39,867 nucleotides of DNA from assembly GCA_022844265.1 (NCBI GenBank), contig JALHMA010000010.1:1-39867 (forward strand). Reading direction: 5' to 3'. This stretch comes from Saprospiraceae bacterium. GTDB lineage: Bacteria; Bacteroidota; Bacteroidia; Chitinophagales; Saprospiraceae. A model generated the notes under the pieces. It was not told the origin of the DNA and did no database searches. It saw nothing but the letters and a program-made list of their open reading frames with translations. A program made the position numbers and the translations under genes. The stretch's first letter is position 1; the number at the start of each line of letters is the position of its first letter. Of this stretch, positions 14,923 to 29,837 are shown in pieces.

Positions 14923-15124
14923 TCCGAAGTGCGAAGTTGTCAGTGCGAAGTCCGTAGCAAGTCCGAAGTGCGAAGTCCGTAGCAAGTCCGAAGTGCGAAG
15001 TCATCAGTCATCAGTCCGTAGAGTACACCGTGGCAAGTTTTGGAATCCCAAGCATGAAACGGCACACTCTACGGACTTCGGACTGATGACTTCGCACTTC
15101 GGACTTGCTACGGACTTCGCACTA
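14920..15124. repeat. Intergenic heptamer hairpin between two convergent genes (locus 6)
   Basis: 58-bp arms at 14967-15024 and 15066-15123 are built of 7-bp words (AAGTCCG, AAGTGCG, CAGTCAT). The arms match except for two whole-heptamer exchanges. Extra left-side units reach back to the malQ stop. Both flanking stop codons are TAG and both lie at the outer edge of the element (14920-14922 and, on the other strand, 15122-15124). The inner end of the left arm contains CCGTAGAGTAC, shared with the loops at 23.9 and 28.6 kb. Confidence 0.92.
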
Positions 15125-22994: not shown

Positions 22995-23741
22995 CTACCG
23001 CACCGGTTTCCACTCTTCCGCATACGACCGGCCCCGAAACAACAATGAAAGCCCTTCGCGCAGGTAGATCCAGCTGATGCCCCAATAGCCGTACTGGCGG
23101 AACCGTCGGGGCGAATGCTGCACCCGCAGCTGCCATAAATAGGAAATATGGCCTTCTTTGCTCAGCCGGTAAAACAGGTTACAATCTTCTCCGGCCACGA
23201 TTTTTTCGTTGTAACCACCGATTTTTTCAAACACCCGCCGCCGCACCAACTGGCATTCACCTTTGGCCAGATACACGCCTGCCAGGAAAGACAGGCGTAT
23301 AACCAGATTCATAAAAATATGATAAAACCGGTCGCTCCAGCGCGTTTCTTCCGGGTACACCCGCAACGGCACGGTAGCCGCTACCACTTCAGGCCGGCGA
23401 AACGTATGCAGCACGGCGTTAAAAAAGCGCTGTATATCAGGGATATACACATCGGCATCCATGTGAAACAGGATATCGCCGGAAGCGGCGGCAGCGCCCA
23501 GGTTGCGCCCGATGGCGATGTTTTGTTTGCCCTGCGCCTGTACCAGTTTAAAATGCCGGGCGCCGTATTGCGCTTCGTAGCGCCGGACAATTTCGGCAGT
23601 GCCGTCGGTGCTGTTGGCATCCGATACGATAATTTCAAGCGCATACCGATCCAGCCACGGTTCAAACTGCGCCAGCGTCCGGTCAATATACTTGGCTTCG
23701 TTTTTGGTGGGGATCACGATACTGAGTTGTACAGTTGACAT
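22995..23741 (-). CDS. Family 2 glycosyltransferase
   Basis: 248 residues, GT-A fold. VQLSIVIPTKNEAKYIDRTL opens the nucleotide-binding half, VSDANSTDGT (39-48) follows, and the metal-binding DxD is Asp95-Ala-Asp97 in HMDADVYI. The acceptor half has GGYNEKIVAGEDCNLFYRL, with the ED motif used as the catalytic base in this family. No membrane domain apart from a weak C-terminal hydrophobic stretch. It transfers a sugar from a nucleotide donor to an unknown acceptor, perhaps a lipid or surface glycan. It stands alone, divergent from thrA. Confidence 0.85.
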   Translation of the reverse strand: MSTVQLSIVIPTKNEAKYIDRTLAQFEPWLDRYALEIIVSDANSTDGTAEIVRRYEAQYGARHFKLVQAQGKQNIAIGRNLGAAAASGDILFHMDADVYIPDIQRFFNAVLHTFRRPEVVAATVPLRVYPEETRWSDRFYHIFMNLVIRLSFLAGVYLAKGECQLVRRRVFEKIGGYNEKIVAGEDCNLFYRLSKEGHISYLWQLRVQHSPRRFRQYGYWGISWIYLREGLSLLFRGRSYAEEWKPVR

Positions 23742-23848
23742 ATCCTTTAAGAATAGTTTGTGCGCCGAAAATTAGTACTTTCCTGCGCAGAACTCCTATT
23801 TTAGTAGATTGTCTTTTTCTTAATTTTTTCTTTTTACCACATGTTTTT

Positions 23849-23981
23849 TACCACATAGGTATTTTACCACATAAGGCACATAGGCTATTCACATAGAACA
23901 CATAGCCGTAGAGTACTTTAAACTATGTGTTCTATGTGAATAGCCTATGTGCCTTATGTGGTAAAATAACTATGTGGTAAA
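23849..23981. repeat. Perfect 44-bp-arm hairpin in a divergent gap (locus 10)
   Basis: Inner arms 23862-23905 and 23923-23966 are perfectly complementary over 44 bp, around the 17-nt loop CCGTAGAGTACTTTAAA. Outer arms (about 23849-23860 with 23968-23981) repeat the TTTACCACATAG words, so the whole structure is about 133 bp. The words are of the type TACCACATA, CACATAGG, CACATAGA. It has a twin at 28557-28669. It lies upstream of both the leftward glycosyltransferase and rightward thrA. Confidence 0.97.
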
Positions 23982-24029
23982 TACTTTCCCCCTTTCTTCC
24001 AAAATAGGTTTTTTAGCCCGTTTTTTGCG

Positions 24030-24060
24030 TCCTCATTCCTCATTCCTCATCCCTCATTCC
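24030..24060. repeat. Single-sided CCTCATT heptamer tract before thrA
   Basis: Four units of CCTCATT/CCTCATC immediately precede the thrA start (10 nt away), with no inverted partner. The tract occupies the position of the ribosome-binding site. Confidence 0.8.
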
Positions 24061-24069
24061 TGTTCTGGC

Positions 24070-26562
24070 ATGAAAGTTCTCAAATTTGGCGGCACTTCCG
24101 TAGGCAGCCCGGCTGCTATTCGCGGTTTGATTGATATTTTAAAAGGTTACCACCAGCGTGGCGACCGTTTTACGGTGGTCTTTTCGGCATTTTCAAAAGT
24201 GACCGATACGCTGCTGGAAATGGCTCAAAAGGCTTCAAAAGGAGACAAGGTATACCTCGATTTACTGGAAAAAGTACGCGCCCGGCATTTGGATGCCATC
24301 GCTGCGCTGCTCGAACCGGAGCATCGCGCGCCGGTCGAAGCACATATTCTTGCCAATTTTGAAGCGCTGGGCAACGTCCTGCAGGGTATTTTTCTGCTGC
24401 GCGAAGCCTCGGCGCGTTCGCTCGATTTTGTGGTGAGTTTTGGCGAGCGCAATTCAGCAGCCATCATTGCTCATGCCATGAACAGCAACGGCATACCGAC
24501 CGAATTTCTGGATACCCGCGAACTGGTGCGCACCGATGCGCATTTCGGCAGCGCTAAAGTGGATTTTGAAGAAACCAACCGCCTCATTTCCCAATACTAC
24601 GCAACACACCCAAAAGTGCAGGCCGCTACCGGTTTTATCGGCAGCACAGCCGAGGGGCTGACCACTACACTCGGGCGCGGCGGTTCGGATTACACGGCAG
24701 CCATCATCGGCGCGGCGCTAAATGCGGATGTGATAGAAATCTGGACGGATGTGGACGGGGTGTTGACCGCCGACCCGCGCAGGGTAAAAAAAGCCTTTAC
24801 ACTGCCCAGCATGACCTATCGGGAAGCCATGGAAATGAGCCACTTCGGCGCCAAGGTGATTTACCCGCCGACCATCCTGCCCGCCCTGGCGAAAGGTATC
24901 CCGCTGCGAATCAGGAACACATTTAACCCTTCTTTTGAAGGTACTTACATCGGTAAAAACCCACCGGCTGAAATCCATACCGCCCTGGAAACGGACAGCG
25001 GCTGGGCCGGCGCCATCAAAGGTATTTCCAGCATCAACCAGGTATGCCTGCTGACCTTGCAGGGAAGCGGCATGTTCGGGGTGCCGGGTATCGCAGCGCG
25101 CCTGTTCAACGCCCTGGCACAGGTGGGCGTCAATATTGTAATTATCACACAGGGGTCGAGCGAAAGCAGCATCACTTTCGCGGTATCGCCTGCCCAGGCC
25201 AAACTGGCCCAAAAAGCCGCGGAAAAAGAATTCGCCTACGAAATCCGGGAAACCCTGATTGAACCGCTGAAAATTGAAACCGATCTTTCCGTGGTAGCCA
25301 TTGTAGGGGAAAACATGCGCTACCGGCCTGGTATTTCGGGTCGCCTTTTTCAGGCATTGGGCAAAAACGGGGTGAATATCGTCGCCATTGCGCAAGGTTC
25401 CAGCGAATTGAATATCTCCGTGGTTGTCAACGCCATGTACGAAACCAAAGCGCTGAATGCCATCCACGAAGCCTTTTTCCTCTCCGATACCAAAACCCTG
25501 CACCTTTACATGGTCGGCGTGGGACTGATTGGCGGCACCCTGCTGCGGCAAATCCAGTCGCAGGCCGATTTTCTGCGCAAAAAACGCAACCTCGAAATCA
25601 AGGTAATGGGATTGGCCAACAGCCGCCGCATGGTGCTCACGGAAAACGGCGTACCCCTGGAAGACTGGAAAAATGCACTCGACGGGGGCGAACCGTTTTC
25701 TATGTTGCGTTTTACGGAACAAATGAAAGCCTTCAACCTGCCCAATGCCATTTTTGTAGACAATACTGCTTCCGGCGATGTCGCGGGATTTTATGAGCAA
25801 ATTCTGGACGCCAGTATCTCTATCTCGACGCCGAATAAAGTGGCGGCCTCTTCACCGTATGCGCATTATTTGCGATTGAAACAATTGGCCAACCAGCGCG
25901 GCGTACAATGGCGCTACGAAACCAATGTCGGCGCCGGCCTGCCCATCATTACTACCCTGAACGACCTCATTCACTCCGGCGACCGCATTGTAAAAATTGA
26001 AGGTATCCTTTCCGGCACCTTGTCTTTCATTTTCAATACGTTCTGCGATCCCGCCCAGCAAGGCAGTTTTTCAGCCATCGTACGGGAGGCCAAAAAACGC
26101 GGCCTGACCGAACCCGATCCGCGCGACGATCTTTCCGGCGCCGATGTGCGCCGCAAGCTGCTCATCCTGTCACGGGAGTCGGGACTGCCGCTGGAGTACA
26201 ACGATATCGAACTGGAGCAGATTTTGCCGGATGCCTGCCTCCAGGCGGACTCTGTCGACCTGTTTTTTGAAGCGCTGGAACAATCCGACGGCCATTTTGA
26301 AGCCATGCGACAAGCAGCGGCGGCGGAAGGCCGCGTGCTTCGTTTTGTTGCCAAATTGGAAGAAGGTAAAGCCGCTATCGTGTTGCAGCAATTTGACCAA
26401 AACCACCCTTTCTATTTCCTCAGCGGGAGCGATAATATGGTGGTGTTCACGACCGAACGCTACCGCGAGCGCCCACTGGTAGTGCGCGGACCCGGCGCCG
26501 GCGCGGAAGTAACCGCCGCAGGCGTATTTGCCGAGGTAATCGGCATGAGCGCAATGGCGTAA
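24070..26562 (+). CDS. thrA: Bifunctional aspartate kinase / homoserine dehydrogenase
   Basis: 830 residues from the ATG at 24070; the frame extends to 23974 only through heptamer repeats. The kinase half starts MKVLKFGGTSVG (5-12) and has LGRGGSDYTAAI. Two ACT-type regulatory repeats follow (GVNIVIITQGSSESSITFAV and GVNIVAIAQGSSELNISVVV). The dehydrogenase half begins near 478 with the dinucleotide fold VGVGLIGGTLL (482-492), then STPNKVAA, GILSGTLSFIFNT and the hallmark EPDPRDDLSGADVRRKLLIL. It performs the first and third steps of aspartate-family amino acid synthesis (threonine, methionine, isoleucine). thrB and thrC do not follow, unlike the usual operon. Its last three codons and stop lie inside the next inverted repeat. 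Confidence 0.97.
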   Translation: MKVLKFGGTSVGSPAAIRGLIDILKGYHQRGDRFTVVFSAFSKVTDTLLEMAQKASKGDKVYLDLLEKVRARHLDAIAALLEPEHRAPVEAHILANFEALGNVLQGIFLLREASARSLDFVVSFGERNSAAIIAHAMNSNGIPTEFLDTRELVRTDAHFGSAKVDFEETNRLISQYYATHPKVQAATGFIGSTAEGLTTTLGRGGSDYTAAIIGAALNADVIEIWTDVDGVLTADPRRVKKAFTLPSMTYREAMEMSHFGAKVIYPPTILPALAKGIPLRIRNTFNPSFEGTYIGKNPPAEIHTALETDSGWAGAIKGISSINQVCLLTLQGSGMFGVPGIAARLFNALAQVGVNIVIITQGSSESSITFAVSPAQAKLAQKAAEKEFAYEIRETLIEPLKIETDLSVVAIVGENMRYRPGISGRLFQALGKNGVNIVAIAQGSSELNISVVVNAMYETKALNAIHEAFFLSDTKTLHLYMVGVGLIGGTLLRQIQSQADFLRKKRNLEIKVMGLANSRRMVLTENGVPLEDWKNALDGGEPFSMLRFTEQMKAFNLPNAIFVDNTASGDVAGFYEQILDASISISTPNKVAASSPYAHYLRLKQLANQRGVQWRYETNVGAGLPIITTLNDLIHSGDRIVKIEGILSGTLSFIFNTFCDPAQQGSFSAIVREAKKRGLTEPDPRDDLSGADVRRKLLILSRESGLPLEYNDIELEQILPDACLQADSVDLFFEALEQSDGHFEAMRQAAAAEGRVLRFVAKLEEGKAAIVLQQFDQNHPFYFLSGSDNMVVFTTERYRERPLVVRGPGAGAEVTAAGVFAEVIGMSAMA

Positions 26563-26709
26563 CGCCGAACCCTGTTCGGCGCTCCGTACCGGCTGCTTTA
26601 GCTGCCGGAACTAGAATACATGGGGAAACGCGCAAATGTGGTCTGTTTGGGTATCCGACAGCTAAAGCAGCCGGTAGAGGCGCCGAACAGGGTTCGGCGT
26701 TACGCCATT
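26553..26709. repeat. Intergenic inverted repeat that includes the thrA stop (locus 12)
   Basis: Left arm from 26553 (inside thrA) to about 26608, right arm about 26652-26709. The outermost 30 bp are perfectly complementary and contain the thrA codons ATG GCG and stop TAA; the inner part pairs GTACCGGCTGCTTTAGCTG with its near complement. No heptamers are obvious. The rest of the 337-bp gap (26710-26899) shows no gene. A possible Shine-Dalgarno AAGGAG lies near 26873, about 20 nt before the next start, rather far for use. Confidence 0.92.
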
Positions 26710-26899
26710 CTGCACAAAATGAAAAAAAGGTTTCAAACATTGGGCGCCTTGCATAGCAGAAGCGACAAAATTACCGTATTATTGCACGCATTTTCAAACA
26801 AAATGCTGTGAAAAATCTATTATAAACGTTTGATTTTCAGCGATATATTACCAAGTCGACTCATAGGCCGGTAAGGAGCAGTTCACGATTCATAACTAT

Positions 26900-27832
26900 A
26901 TGCGAAGAGCCATTGACATACTTTCTGCCGGTGAATTACTGGTTGATTTCATCACCGCTGAATTTGTACAAACATTAGACGAAGCCAGCCTTTTTAAACG
27001 TGTCCCCGGTGGCAGTCCTGCCAACCTGGCTATGAATATGGCCCGTCTCGGCAACAATGCCATCCTGGCGGCTTCTGTCGGCAATGATGACATGGGCGAT
27101 GTGCTGCGCAACTATGTAGCAAAACTGGGCGTCGATACGACGTACATCGCGCAGGTAGACGAACCGACCACCCTTATTTTGGTGACGCGCTCGGCAACGG
27201 TGTCCAATTTTCAGCCTTACCGCGCTGCCGATGCCATGCTCTCTATTCGCCAGTTCCCGTATCAGCGTTTTGAGGAAATCGGCATTTTCCATACCACCTG
27301 TTTTGCACTTAGCAAACAACCTTCTCAGCACGTACTGATGGAAGTGGCCGAAAAAGCAAAACGCGCCGGTTGCCAGTTGAGCATCGATGCCAATTACGCC
27401 GAAAAAATATGGCCTGATCGCCGCGAAGCGCAGCGCCTGCTGGCAGAACTCTGCCGCCTGCGCGCCTTGGTAAAAGTCAGCGACGTGGATTGGGGCCGCC
27501 TGTATGAAGATGAAACCCCGGCACCGGATGCCGTGATCGATCACTTCCTCAAAATGGGCGCTACGGAAGTGTGTTTCACCCTCGGCGATAAAGGCTGCTG
27601 GGTCGGCAACGGCGAAGAACGCCATTTCCTGCCTGCCCGTGAAGTGGAAGTAAAAGATACCACCGGCGCCGGCGATGCCTTCTGGTCGGGATACCTGACC
27701 GCCCGCCTCGATGAAAAAAATCTGCTCGAATGCGCTATCGCAGGACGCCGGATGGCCGAATTGAAACTCGGGCATTTCGGGCCCCTACCCGACAAAGTGG
27801 ATCGGGCTGCGATTTATGTGGACTTGAATTAA
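26900..27832 (+). CDS. PfkB-family carbohydrate kinase, probably fructokinase-like
   Basis: 310 residues. It contains both PfkB signatures: GGSPANLAMNMARLG (37-51) near the start and DTTGAGDAFWSGYL (253-266), whose Asp259 is the catalytic base. The N-terminal GELLVDFI binds sugar. It phosphorylates a sugar such as fructose with ATP; the exact sugar is not determined by sequence. It is a single gene between repeat elements. The C-terminus YVDLN and the stop are duplicated 97 bp downstream as part of a tandem duplication of the neighbouring repeat. Confidence 0.9.
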   Translation: MRRAIDILSAGELLVDFITAEFVQTLDEASLFKRVPGGSPANLAMNMARLGNNAILAASVGNDDMGDVLRNYVAKLGVDTTYIAQVDEPTTLILVTRSATVSNFQPYRAADAMLSIRQFPYQRFEEIGIFHTTCFALSKQPSQHVLMEVAEKAKRAGCQLSIDANYAEKIWPDRREAQRLLAELCRLRALVKVSDVDWGRLYEDETPAPDAVIDHFLKMGATEVCFTLGDKGCWVGNGEERHFLPAREVEVKDTTGAGDAFWSGYLTARLDEKNLLECAIAGRRMAELKLGHFGPLPDKVDRAAIYVDLN

Positions 27833-28027
27833 AGGTGTTTCGTGTTTGGTGTTTCGTGTTTGGGGGTGCTTCGTCCAAGCTACACACAGTCGCTGAAAGC
27901 AAAGCACCCCTAAAATGGACTTGAATTAAAGGTGTGGGGGTATGGTGTTGGGGGTGCTTCGCCCAAGCCACACACAGTCGCCGAAAGCAAAGCACCCCCA
28001 AACACGAAACACCATACACTAAACACG
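27819..28027. repeat. Tandemly duplicated hairpin element (locus 13)
   Basis: A 19-bp segment holding the end of the kinase gene (TGGACTTGAATTAAAGGTG, 27819-27837) recurs exactly at 27916-27934. Each copy is followed by a 50-bp core (27862-27911 and 27950-27999), GGGGGTGCTTCG at the left and AAGCACCCC at the right. The two cores differ at four positions, all T in the first and C in the second. GTGTTTCGTGTTTG heptamers flank the left side of the first copy and the right side of the second, so the outer arms pair across the pair of copies. Confidence 0.9.
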
Positions 28028-28036
28028 CATTGCGGC

Positions 28037-28555
28037 ATGGACGATTCCCTGCAATTCACCGCTTTTCTGGAAAGTTCCAACAACAACCTCTGGGGCTTTC
28101 ACTTCCCTGTGCCCGATTTGATTGCACAAACTTTTCTGGCGGATGATGCCAAACGTGTAGTCTGTACCCTGAATGAAAAAGTGACGTTTCAATGCGGCCT
28201 GATCCCGAAAGGCAACGGCGCGTATTGCATTATGGTGAATAAAAAAATACGCGAACAATTGGGCCTGAAACCCGGCTCCACCGCCCGGGTGAGCCTCCGC
28301 AAAGACGACAGCGAATACGGCCTGCCCATGCCCGAAGAATTAGCCGAAGTACTGGCCCAGGACGAAGCAGGCAACCGCCTGTTTCACGCCCTCACCCCCG
28401 GAAAAATCCGCACCCTGCTCTACATCGTCGGTCATGTCAAAAATACGGACGCCCGCATCGGCAGGGCATTTGCCATTGTGGAGCACCTGAAAACCCATGC
28501 GGGAAAGATTAACTACAAGGTGCTGAATGAGGATTTGAAAAAGGGGAGTATTTGA
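28037..28555 (+). CDS. DUF1905 / YdeI-like (OmpD-associated type) protein
   Basis: 172 residues from the ATG at 28037; upstream in-frame sequence is repeat-derived. The N-terminal half (about 1-95) is DUF1905-like: WGFHFPVPDLIAQTFL, then RVVCTLNEKVTFQCGLIPKG. The C-terminal part is the YdeI/bacteriocin-protection-like helical domain (about 100-172: LFHALTPGKIRTLLYIVGHV, then RIGRAFAIVEHLKTHAGKIN). Members are small cytosolic proteins of unknown biochemical role. It is a single gene between two hairpin elements. Confidence 0.8.
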   Translation: MDDSLQFTAFLESSNNNLWGFHFPVPDLIAQTFLADDAKRVVCTLNEKVTFQCGLIPKGNGAYCIMVNKKIREQLGLKPGSTARVSLRKDDSEYGLPMPEELAEVLAQDEAGNRLFHALTPGKIRTLLYIVGHVKNTDARIGRAFAIVEHLKTHAGKINYKVLNEDLKKGSI

Positions 28556-28556
28556 G

Positions 28557-28669
28557 TTTCTTTTACCACATATGACACATAGGCTATTCACCTACAACAC
28601 ATAGCCGTAGAGTACTCTAAACTATGTGTTGTAGGTGAATAGCCTATGTGTCATATGTGGTAAAAGAAA
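28557..28669. repeat. Perfect 44-bp-arm hairpin in a convergent gap (locus 14)
   Basis: Arms 28561-28604 and 28622-28665 are perfectly complementary (48 bp when TTTC/GAAA at the edges is counted), around the loop CCGTAGAGTACTCTAAA. Twin of locus 10: same arm length, same loop length with one change, same orientation, and four compensated differences in the stem. It fills the gap between a rightward and a leftward gene. Confidence 0.97.
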
Positions 28670-28683
28670 AAATATGGACCTTT

Positions 28684-29514
28684 TTAATATTCTATCCTTG
28701 CCAGTACCGGCAAATGATCCGACGGATAATGGCAGTTCCGGGAGTCGCTCAACACAGCGTGCTGTTTCACACGCATACCGTTTCCATTGATAAAAATATA
28801 GTCGATCAGGCGTTTCACCGGCTCGTGAAATTTGAAGGCATTGAAGGTTCCTTCGGGGCCGAAAGCGGGTTCCTGGCTGACAGCACGCGTATCCTTGAGC
28901 GCGCCGGCGAGCACTGCGGCGGGTGGTTCACCCGGCTCCGAATTAAAATCGCCCATCAAAATAGCCGGTTCATTTTCCTTGTTCAATTCCTTGATTTTCA
29001 ACAGGATGAGTTCGGCTGACCGCAAGCGCGCCGTCACCCCGACATGGTCGAAATGCGTGTTAAATACCCATATGCTCTTTGCTGCCAGCGAGTCGTACAA
29101 ATGGGCGTAGGTACACACGCGGGGTAAGGCGGCATCCCAGCCTTTGGAGGGCAGGCCGGGCGTTTCAGACAGCCAGAAGGTACCGGATTGCAGCAGCCCG
29201 AAACGCGTTTTTTGGAAATACAGGGCCGAGTATTCGCCCGCTTCCTTCCCATCGTCGCGTGCGCCGCCAACCCGCGCAAAAGCGGGCAGTTGTTCGTTCA
29301 GGTATTCCACCTGGCGGTGCAGGCCTTCCTGAATGCCGAAGACGTCGGGTGCATAGAAACGCAGCTGGGCGGCCAATTGCTCGCGACGCAGGGGCCATGC
29401 GTCTTCACCGTCGCCCGGGTTGTCGAAACGGATGTTGTAGGTGATGGCGGTGAGGGTGGTCTGGCTGTGGGTAGTAAAGGGTAGGAAGAGGAGCAGGGCG
29501 AATAGGCGCAGCAT
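28684..29514 (-). CDS. Exported endonuclease/exonuclease/phosphatase-family hydrolase
   Basis: 276 residues. Signal peptide MLRLFALLLFLPFTTHSQ, so periplasmic or secreted. Metal and catalytic motifs of the EEP fold are complete: YNIRFDN (26-32), GIQEG with Glu63, NTHFDH, ILMGDFNS, LIDYIF and PSDHLPV with Asp266-His267. EEP proteins hydrolyse phosphodiester bonds in nucleic acids, phospholipids or sugar phosphates; without transmembrane partners or DNA-binding parts this one could be a secreted nuclease or a phosphodiesterase. Monocistronic, with repeat DNA on both sides. Confidence 0.87.
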   Translation of the reverse strand: MLRLFALLLFLPFTTHSQTTLTAITYNIRFDNPGDGEDAWPLRREQLAAQLRFYAPDVFGIQEGLHRQVEYLNEQLPAFARVGGARDDGKEAGEYSALYFQKTRFGLLQSGTFWLSETPGLPSKGWDAALPRVCTYAHLYDSLAAKSIWVFNTHFDHVGVTARLRSAELILLKIKELNKENEPAILMGDFNSEPGEPPAAVLAGALKDTRAVSQEPAFGPEGTFNAFKFHEPVKRLIDYIFINGNGMRVKQHAVLSDSRNCHYPSDHLPVLARIEY

Positions 29515-29578: not shown

Positions 29579-29837
29579 ATATGTTTCTGGTTATCCGCCT
29601 TTTGTACAGGAGATTAATTTCCCTGGGTTCCATAGCCGCGTAGCGGCATAAGGTCGGTAGACAAACCAAAGAGCAACGTACCAAGGTGCAAAGCACCGTA
29701 ACTTTTAGCCTTTGTTTCGGTGCTACGCACCTTTTGAATACGCATGGCATTTATTGCTACCGACCTTATGCCGCTACGCGGCCAGAGCGTCCAACCAAGA
29801 TCAGGCCCCGGTACAACAAGCGGATAGTCAGAATATG
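29579..29837. repeat. About 260-bp nested inverted repeat (locus 16)
   Basis: The core arms TAGCCGCGTAGCGGCATAAG to GGTCGGTAG (29633-29660) match 29757-29783. Inside, AAGGTGCAAAGCACCG (29684-29699) nearly pairs with CGGTGCTACGCACCTT (29718-29733). Outside, 29579-29610 pairs imperfectly with 29808-29837 (words such as TATCCGC and TTTTGTAC). It fills most of the 375-bp gap between two leftward genes; nothing else is seen there. Confidence 0.85.

Follow-up and report, generated by a model that had tools for sequence, protein, structure and literature searches.

The locus considered here raises the question of how the two arms of a long DNA hairpin can differ from copy to copy and still pair with one another. 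The window, by which we mean the whole stretch of 39,867 nt that was analysed, is contig C10 (JALHMA010000010.1) of the draft genome of a Saprospiraceae bacterium (GCA_022844265.1; 6.05 Mb, 561 contigs; hereafter G000), and it contains two hairpins, elements A and B (Table 1). By its protein matches the window falls among uncultured Saprospiraceae, the closest named record found being SJ208 (84% protein identity). An initial annotation, made from the sequence alone, had described them as twins and proposed that one arm is rewritten from the other. When this was checked in the sequence, the cores of A and B were found to have perfect 44-bp arms and 17-nt loops that are apart by one T/C change, and the differences between their arms, at arm positions 13, 15, 32, and 35, were mirrored in the opposite arm in four of four cases, three of them transversions. 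The annotated extent is that of the cores, as the full arms are longer (Table 1). We give about an even chance to the interpretation that A and B belong to an abundant palindromic repeat of intergenic regions, that copying from arm to arm at the DNA level keeps its arms alike, and that dispersed copies also exchange sequence. Because A and B are at different sites, the differences between them are by themselves no proof of arms changing in place.

Mirrored changes were quantified in an alignment of 51 copies from G000 and its sister species G018 (about 80% identical to G000), from which 8 of 59 copies were omitted because of length or form, and into which A was entered by its core. The count of compensated and uncompensated changes that the initial annotation had suggested gave, for 1979 base-pair cells, 94.2% paired, with 151 cells changed on both sides, 42 changed on one side, and 115 unpaired. 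The mean number of both-sided cells in shuffled data was 53.2, and the observed 151 was reached in 0 of 500 shuffles; at least one both-sided change was present at 18 of the 41 base pairs, and all five measures used were above those of all 500 shuffles. These shuffles ignore the relatedness of the copies, whereas controls in which the pairing partners were slid by 1 to 3 columns retain it, and the latter yielded at most 46 both-sided cells and a covariation of at most 0.068, compared to 0.193 for the alignment itself. The arms are composed of words (ACCACATAG, CACATAG) with variable linkers between them, and the opposite arm mirrors this arrangement: of the 25 copies (out of 59) that could be parsed, the parser requiring intact words, 18 had linkers that mirrored each other exactly, and 21 different left linkers were present. 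In G018, most arms were mirrored despite loops that were barely more alike than shuffled ones (identity 0.51 versus 0.49; 23 loops, three of them G000-like).

Individually, the copies ranged from perfect through to clearly broken. The ACATAG+CCGTAGAGTAC junction is present in 12 copies in the sampled G000 DNA, of which two, namely A and B, have a perfect core, and the other ten had at least one mismatch or gap. The label of twins is therefore misleading, as A and B stand at the clean end of a range and are not a special pair. Uncompensated differences in other copies, which the initial annotation had named as evidence against its own proposal, do exist to a degree, as seen in these ten copies and in the 42 one-sided cells. 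Arm-to-arm correction is thus supported by mirrored changes far above shuffled levels and by the lack of a G-U signature described below, but the perfection of the arms from which it was proposed is not the rule, with about 5% of arm base pairs mismatched.

The repeat is abundant in a few related genomes, all of those compared being multi-contig drafts. The loop 11-mer occurs 69 times in G000 (45 forward and 24 reverse; reversed control, 0), and it is abundant in 4 of 41 other members of the genus (145 occurrences in G008, 89 in G016, 23 in G030, and 16 in G018), with 0 to 5 in each of the remaining members searched. At least two hairpin types contain this 11-mer in G000: it is the loop in the ACATAG type and lies within the arms in the AGTC-word type. 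The arm word pattern of the ACATAG type gave 116 forward and 116 reverse matches (232) in G000, and 32 and 36 in G018. Inverted repeats in G000 are beyond chance, with 109 in 434,106 bases compared to 5 in one order-2 Markov resample, a density that is biased upward by the selection of the sample around word matches and that includes at least one masked run of N. Hairpins were scarcer in G007 (16 in 20 stretches), G015 (7 per 200 kb), and G028 (9 per 200 kb). Considering all families in four genomes, 60 of 333 hairpins with arms of at least 30 bp were perfect. In L048:944-1308, the core motif is present in seven forward 51-bp units versus a single reverse one, and so arm expansions are not always mirrored. 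In the distant relative G041, a hairpin at L085:6831-7012 (the same region is in L075) has 82-bp arms of GTGGTCAAT words, a CCGTAGAGTACTC loop, and one mismatch.

Orthologous slots were mapped between species by their flanks, using a finder that accepts loops of up to 80 nt. A hairpin was present in 15 of 19 slots mapped from G000 to G018 and 15 of 20 in the reverse direction, in 22 of 22 from G016 to G008 and 23 of 27 in reverse, and in 9 of 21 and 4 of 4 slots mapped from G000 to G016 and G008, respectively; the mappings from G018 to G016 (2 of 10) and to G008 (0 of 1) were left out of later analysis. At a given slot, the arms often have a different sequence in each species but still pair with each other, as in L165/L178 and in L188/L023, the latter having a one-base insertion in both arms. 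After removal of reciprocal duplicates and of alignments with fewer than 20 columns or less than 60% identity, the 75 hairpin-holding mappings in four directions yielded 26 same-family slots, in which 111 of 1079 columns had compensated and 93 had single-arm changes, columns unpaired in both species being placed in neither class. Some orthologous slots were occupied by another hairpin family. The slot of B contains unrelated hairpins in G016 and G008 and a short one in G030, and at the G018 locus of B the upstream neighbour is not the same, and hairpins of at least 14 bp are lacking. In the gap corresponding to that of A, no hairpin was found in G016. The G018 region L195:9126-9140 is split exactly at a hairpin between two G000 contigs (L045:1488 and L031:1490), which represents either a rearrangement breakpoint or an assembly break at a palindrome.

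The possibility that the arms are mirrored at birth must be weighed here, such that mobile or converted copies have identical arms when they are made or overwritten and decay thereafter, and the A/B differences were inherited from different sources. Loops in G000 are indeed similar (mean identity 0.74; 31 loops, a few unrelated), and because of this likeness, it is probable that dispersed copies in G000 copy or overwrite one another, in addition to any local copying between arms, though in three orthologous G000/G018 pairs the loops are unrelated (identity 0.41 to 0.45). Of the slots mapped from G000, 12 of 21 in G016 and 4 of 19 in G018 yielded no hairpin, with the qualification that one of the 12 empty G016 slots is a run of N and that at least one slot per set still has family words or a repeat missed by the finder. 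Several slots contain a different hairpin family, even in the roughly 94% identical pair G007/G020. Nevertheless, mirroring is retained in most of the G018 copies even though their loops and linkers are dissimilar; the G008 counterparts of all 22 mapped G016 slots bear hairpins, mostly of the AGTC-word type seen in G016, which indicates that many hairpins are old; and no link to a transposase was found, the four Y1 transposase loci examined having two stray word matches and no family hairpins. We regard mirroring at birth as a possible but somewhat unlikely explanation.

Compensated base pairs are commonly read as proof of functional RNA, and selection on a transcribed stem, either a terminator or a stabiliser of mRNA 3′ ends, could have resulted in ordinary compensatory substitution. 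The positions of the hairpins relative to genes accord with such a role. Genes were called with a rough reading-frame caller and gaps of at least 60 nt were considered, in stretches chosen around matches except for most of G007, and so the following values are properties of the sampled set. In G000, 34 of 55 convergent gaps contained a hairpin, as did 36 of 130 tandem and 9 of 47 divergent ones; the respective numbers were 25 of 46, 33 of 120, and 12 of 39 in G018, 33 of 49, 28 of 96, and 8 of 51 in G016, 40 of 51, 35 of 105, and 5 of 40 in G008, and 2 of 23, 8 of 63, and 0 of 28 in G007. A preference for gene 3′ ends was therefore seen in four of the five sampled genomes (G000, G018, G016, and G008) and was not clear in G007. 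From 10 to 20 hairpins per genome, and 3 in G007, were inside called frames. Where a stop codon lay within 300 nt, the median distance from it to the hairpin start was 8 nt (one-sided, n = 198) or 6 nt (convergent, 226 sides, each hairpin being counted from both). Also in favour of such a role, slots persist while families change.

If a transcribed stem were selected, G-U pairs should outlast A-C pairs and compensated changes should be mostly transitions. It was found that isolated mismatches, oriented by the upstream gene, comprised 52 G-T, 58 A-C, and 56 others (p = 0.63), and that compensated changes in the 26 slots comprised 67 transversions and 44 transitions, compared to 33 and 60 for single-arm changes (p = 0.0004); when only isolated columns were counted, the numbers of transversions and transitions were 24 and 22 for compensated versus 18 and 37 for single-arm changes (p = 0.068). 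No U tract follows the stem, the frequency of T being 0.23 to 0.36 at each of 12 positions (four genomes pooled). Element B follows the 3′-end pattern, but element A lies between divergent genes, and the 3′-end location may also reflect tolerance of insertions, with hairpins in only 2 of 23 convergent gaps of G007. The lack of a G-U excess and of transition dominance disfavours selection on RNA structure, leaving selection on DNA structure unaffected, and the absent G-U signature favours DNA-level copying. An RNA stem as the cause of the mirrored arms is, in our view, unlikely.

Several observations weigh against arm-to-arm copying. The frequency of mismatches was 0.050 to 0.057 per arm base pair in four genomes, as measured with a hairpin finder that favours well-paired arms, and correction is therefore far from complete (runs of N were removed only in this analysis, in the count of 60 perfect hairpins above, in the analysis of the mismatch deficit below, and in the examination of the G041 hairpin). 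Arms made of words or heptamers can shift register, which affects both compensated and single-arm counts, and the between-locus process behind the similar G000 loops could be sufficient to transfer mirrored arms between copies. In the close pair G007/G020 (94 to 99.6% identical), one hairpin differs by a single uncompensated base, in another the outer arms have changed without clean mirroring, and one slot has different hairpins (L260:5747-5821 versus L285:317-419) in surroundings that are about 94 to 96% identical, which indicates replacement and not correction. The sole multi-base paired change seen, also in G007/G020 (L270:15726-15924), has bases replaced by G in one arm and by C in the opposite one. 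The same paired G/C pattern could arise at hairpins from two-colour sequencing dropouts, and this poly-G/poly-C change was withdrawn as the best single-step case. The comparison of sister strains, suggested in the initial annotation as a way to see arm changes appear in pairs, thus provided one candidate with a possible sequencing cause and one single uncompensated change, and no paired step was cleanly caught. In the highly contiguous pair G015/G028 (96% identical at one locus), gene order was broken, and the one hairpin mapped differed by an uncompensated change and in its loop. Fewer mismatches than expected were flanked by long matches (28 versus 55.9 for 15 bp and 3 versus 14.2 for 21 bp), which fits correction but also clustered mismatches or collapse by the assembler.

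The last of these, in which short-read assemblers collapse nearly identical arms, has in its favour that the genomes compared are multi-contig drafts, that mismatches with 21 matched bases on both sides are so rare, and that loop-motif copies are located less than 100 bases from the ends of five G000 contigs. On the other hand, the A/B differences are 9 to 16 matched bases from the loop, the arm end, or the next mismatch, a spacing that by our reasoning would not allow a de Bruijn bubble to form at k ≥ 21; mismatches persist in most hairpins; and the same architecture is present in separate assemblies. We consider an assembly artefact very improbable as the explanation, although arms may have been collapsed in this way at some hairpins.

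For the copying of one arm from the other, the following sequence of events may be envisaged. The element would spread, or be overwritten from other copies, within a genome, as the similar G000 loops suggest. A mutation in one arm would often be copied to the other arm or erased by fold-back DNA synthesis, that is, quasipalindrome correction by template switching, so that the arms could drift while remaining alike, and the slots may be maintained by some role at the 3′ ends of genes. We infer template switching as the copying route, as we do the rate of copying and any benefit to the host. A bolder proposal, which we advance tentatively and consider rather doubtful, is that an unusually active DNA process in this Saprospiraceae lineage continually rewrites one arm from the other in hundreds of hairpins next to stop codons; each slot at a gene end would then retain a hairpin, whereas the sequence and even the family of that hairpin would change over time.

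The neighbourhood of A and B is summarised in Table 1. The listed GTG start of the fusion reading frame overlaps the tail of hairpin A, and so the true start is probably further on. The two convergent genes on either side of element B are 128 nt apart, and the element takes up 113 nt of this gap. The window also contains several other hairpins made of 7- or 8-base words. A search of the whole window against Rfam at gathering thresholds gave 0 matches, and a comparison of element B to a phage collection gave no match. A dispersed repeat at 29585-29833 of the window is present at six other places in G000 with 87 to 91% identity, and weaker matches are in relatives, on both strands.

Table 1. Hairpin elements A and B and neighbouring features in the window.
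Feature	Coordinates	Strand	Description
Hairpin element A	23847..23981	+	59-bp arms, one mismatch, 17-nt loop
Perfect 44-bp core of A	23862..23966	+	105 nt
Loop of A	23906..23922	+	CCGTAGAGTACTTTAAA
Hairpin element B	28557..28669	+	48-bp perfect arms, 17-nt loop
Perfect 44-bp core of B	28561..28665	+	105 nt
Loop of B	28605..28621	+	CCGTAGAGTACTCTAAA
Related hairpin, second (AGTC-word) family	14967..15123	+	CCGTAGAGTAC core at inner end of left arm; three mismatches
Glycosyltransferase family 2 gene	22995..23741	-	Pfam PF00535; A is upstream of this gene, in a divergent gap
Aspartokinase-homoserine dehydrogenase fusion reading frame	23974..26562	+	Pfam PF00742, PF00696
DUF1905/OmdA protein gene	27932..28555	+	Stop codon one base from element B
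Endonuclease/exonuclease/phosphatase family gene	28684..29514	-	PF03372; convergent to DUF1905/OmdA gene

In the open literature searched, nothing was found on such hairpins in Saprospiraceae or Bacteroidetes, or with heptamer words; the copying mechanism is already known, and it is the setting, the scale, and the turnover of slots that we did not meet there. The GTAG- or CGTC-tagged repetitive extragenic palindromic (REP) sequences of the REPIN/RAYT systems, as described in PMC3733652 (see also PMC2817692), resemble the present repeats in being numerous intergenic palindromes downstream of coding regions, mostly in convergent or same-direction gaps. However, REP units are 20 to 40 bp (PMC3733652) compared to arms of 40 to 60 bp here, and the same text cites frequent GT pairs in REPs, whereas no wobble excess was found in our data. 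The unpaired GTAG or CGTC end tag of REPs was not found in these hairpins, in which GTAG lies in the loop or within both arms. Mobilisation by a RAYT was considered and rejected, as counts of Y1 transposases do not track motif abundance and no family hairpins were present beside the 4 of 7 PF01797 matches examined (in G000, G016, and G008). Three of these four loci (L320, L321, and L322) have a hairpin of their own, the arm of which has GCCCTTTCAGGGCT at its inner end.

Compensation is present here without the wobble signature of RNA selection, and these genomes therefore provide a natural experiment on the extent to which copying between arms at the DNA level can by itself yield false covariation, as well as on the persistence of palindromic repeats at gene ends. 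Quasipalindrome correction has been described previously (van Noort et al. 2003, as cited in PMC10434271), and Monttinen and Loytynoja (2022; PMC8794818, in excerpt) report that template switching makes and keeps stems, perfect stems and multi-base compensatory changes being explained by one arm serving as the template for its partner. The cases in that excerpt are RNA genes, whereas here the process, as deduced from sequence, would act on long repeats between genes, in large number and within a single lineage of bacteria. The palindromes of Nematomorpha mitochondria (PMC6649704, from the accessible text) are similar to those described here in that they are long inverted repeats with arms that are alike and with a sequence that varies between species, for which repeat conversion was suggested; they differ in being mitochondrial, within coding genes, and nearly all perfect when long, whereas the hairpins of G000 and its relatives are bacterial, mostly intergenic, and mismatched at about 5% of arm base pairs.

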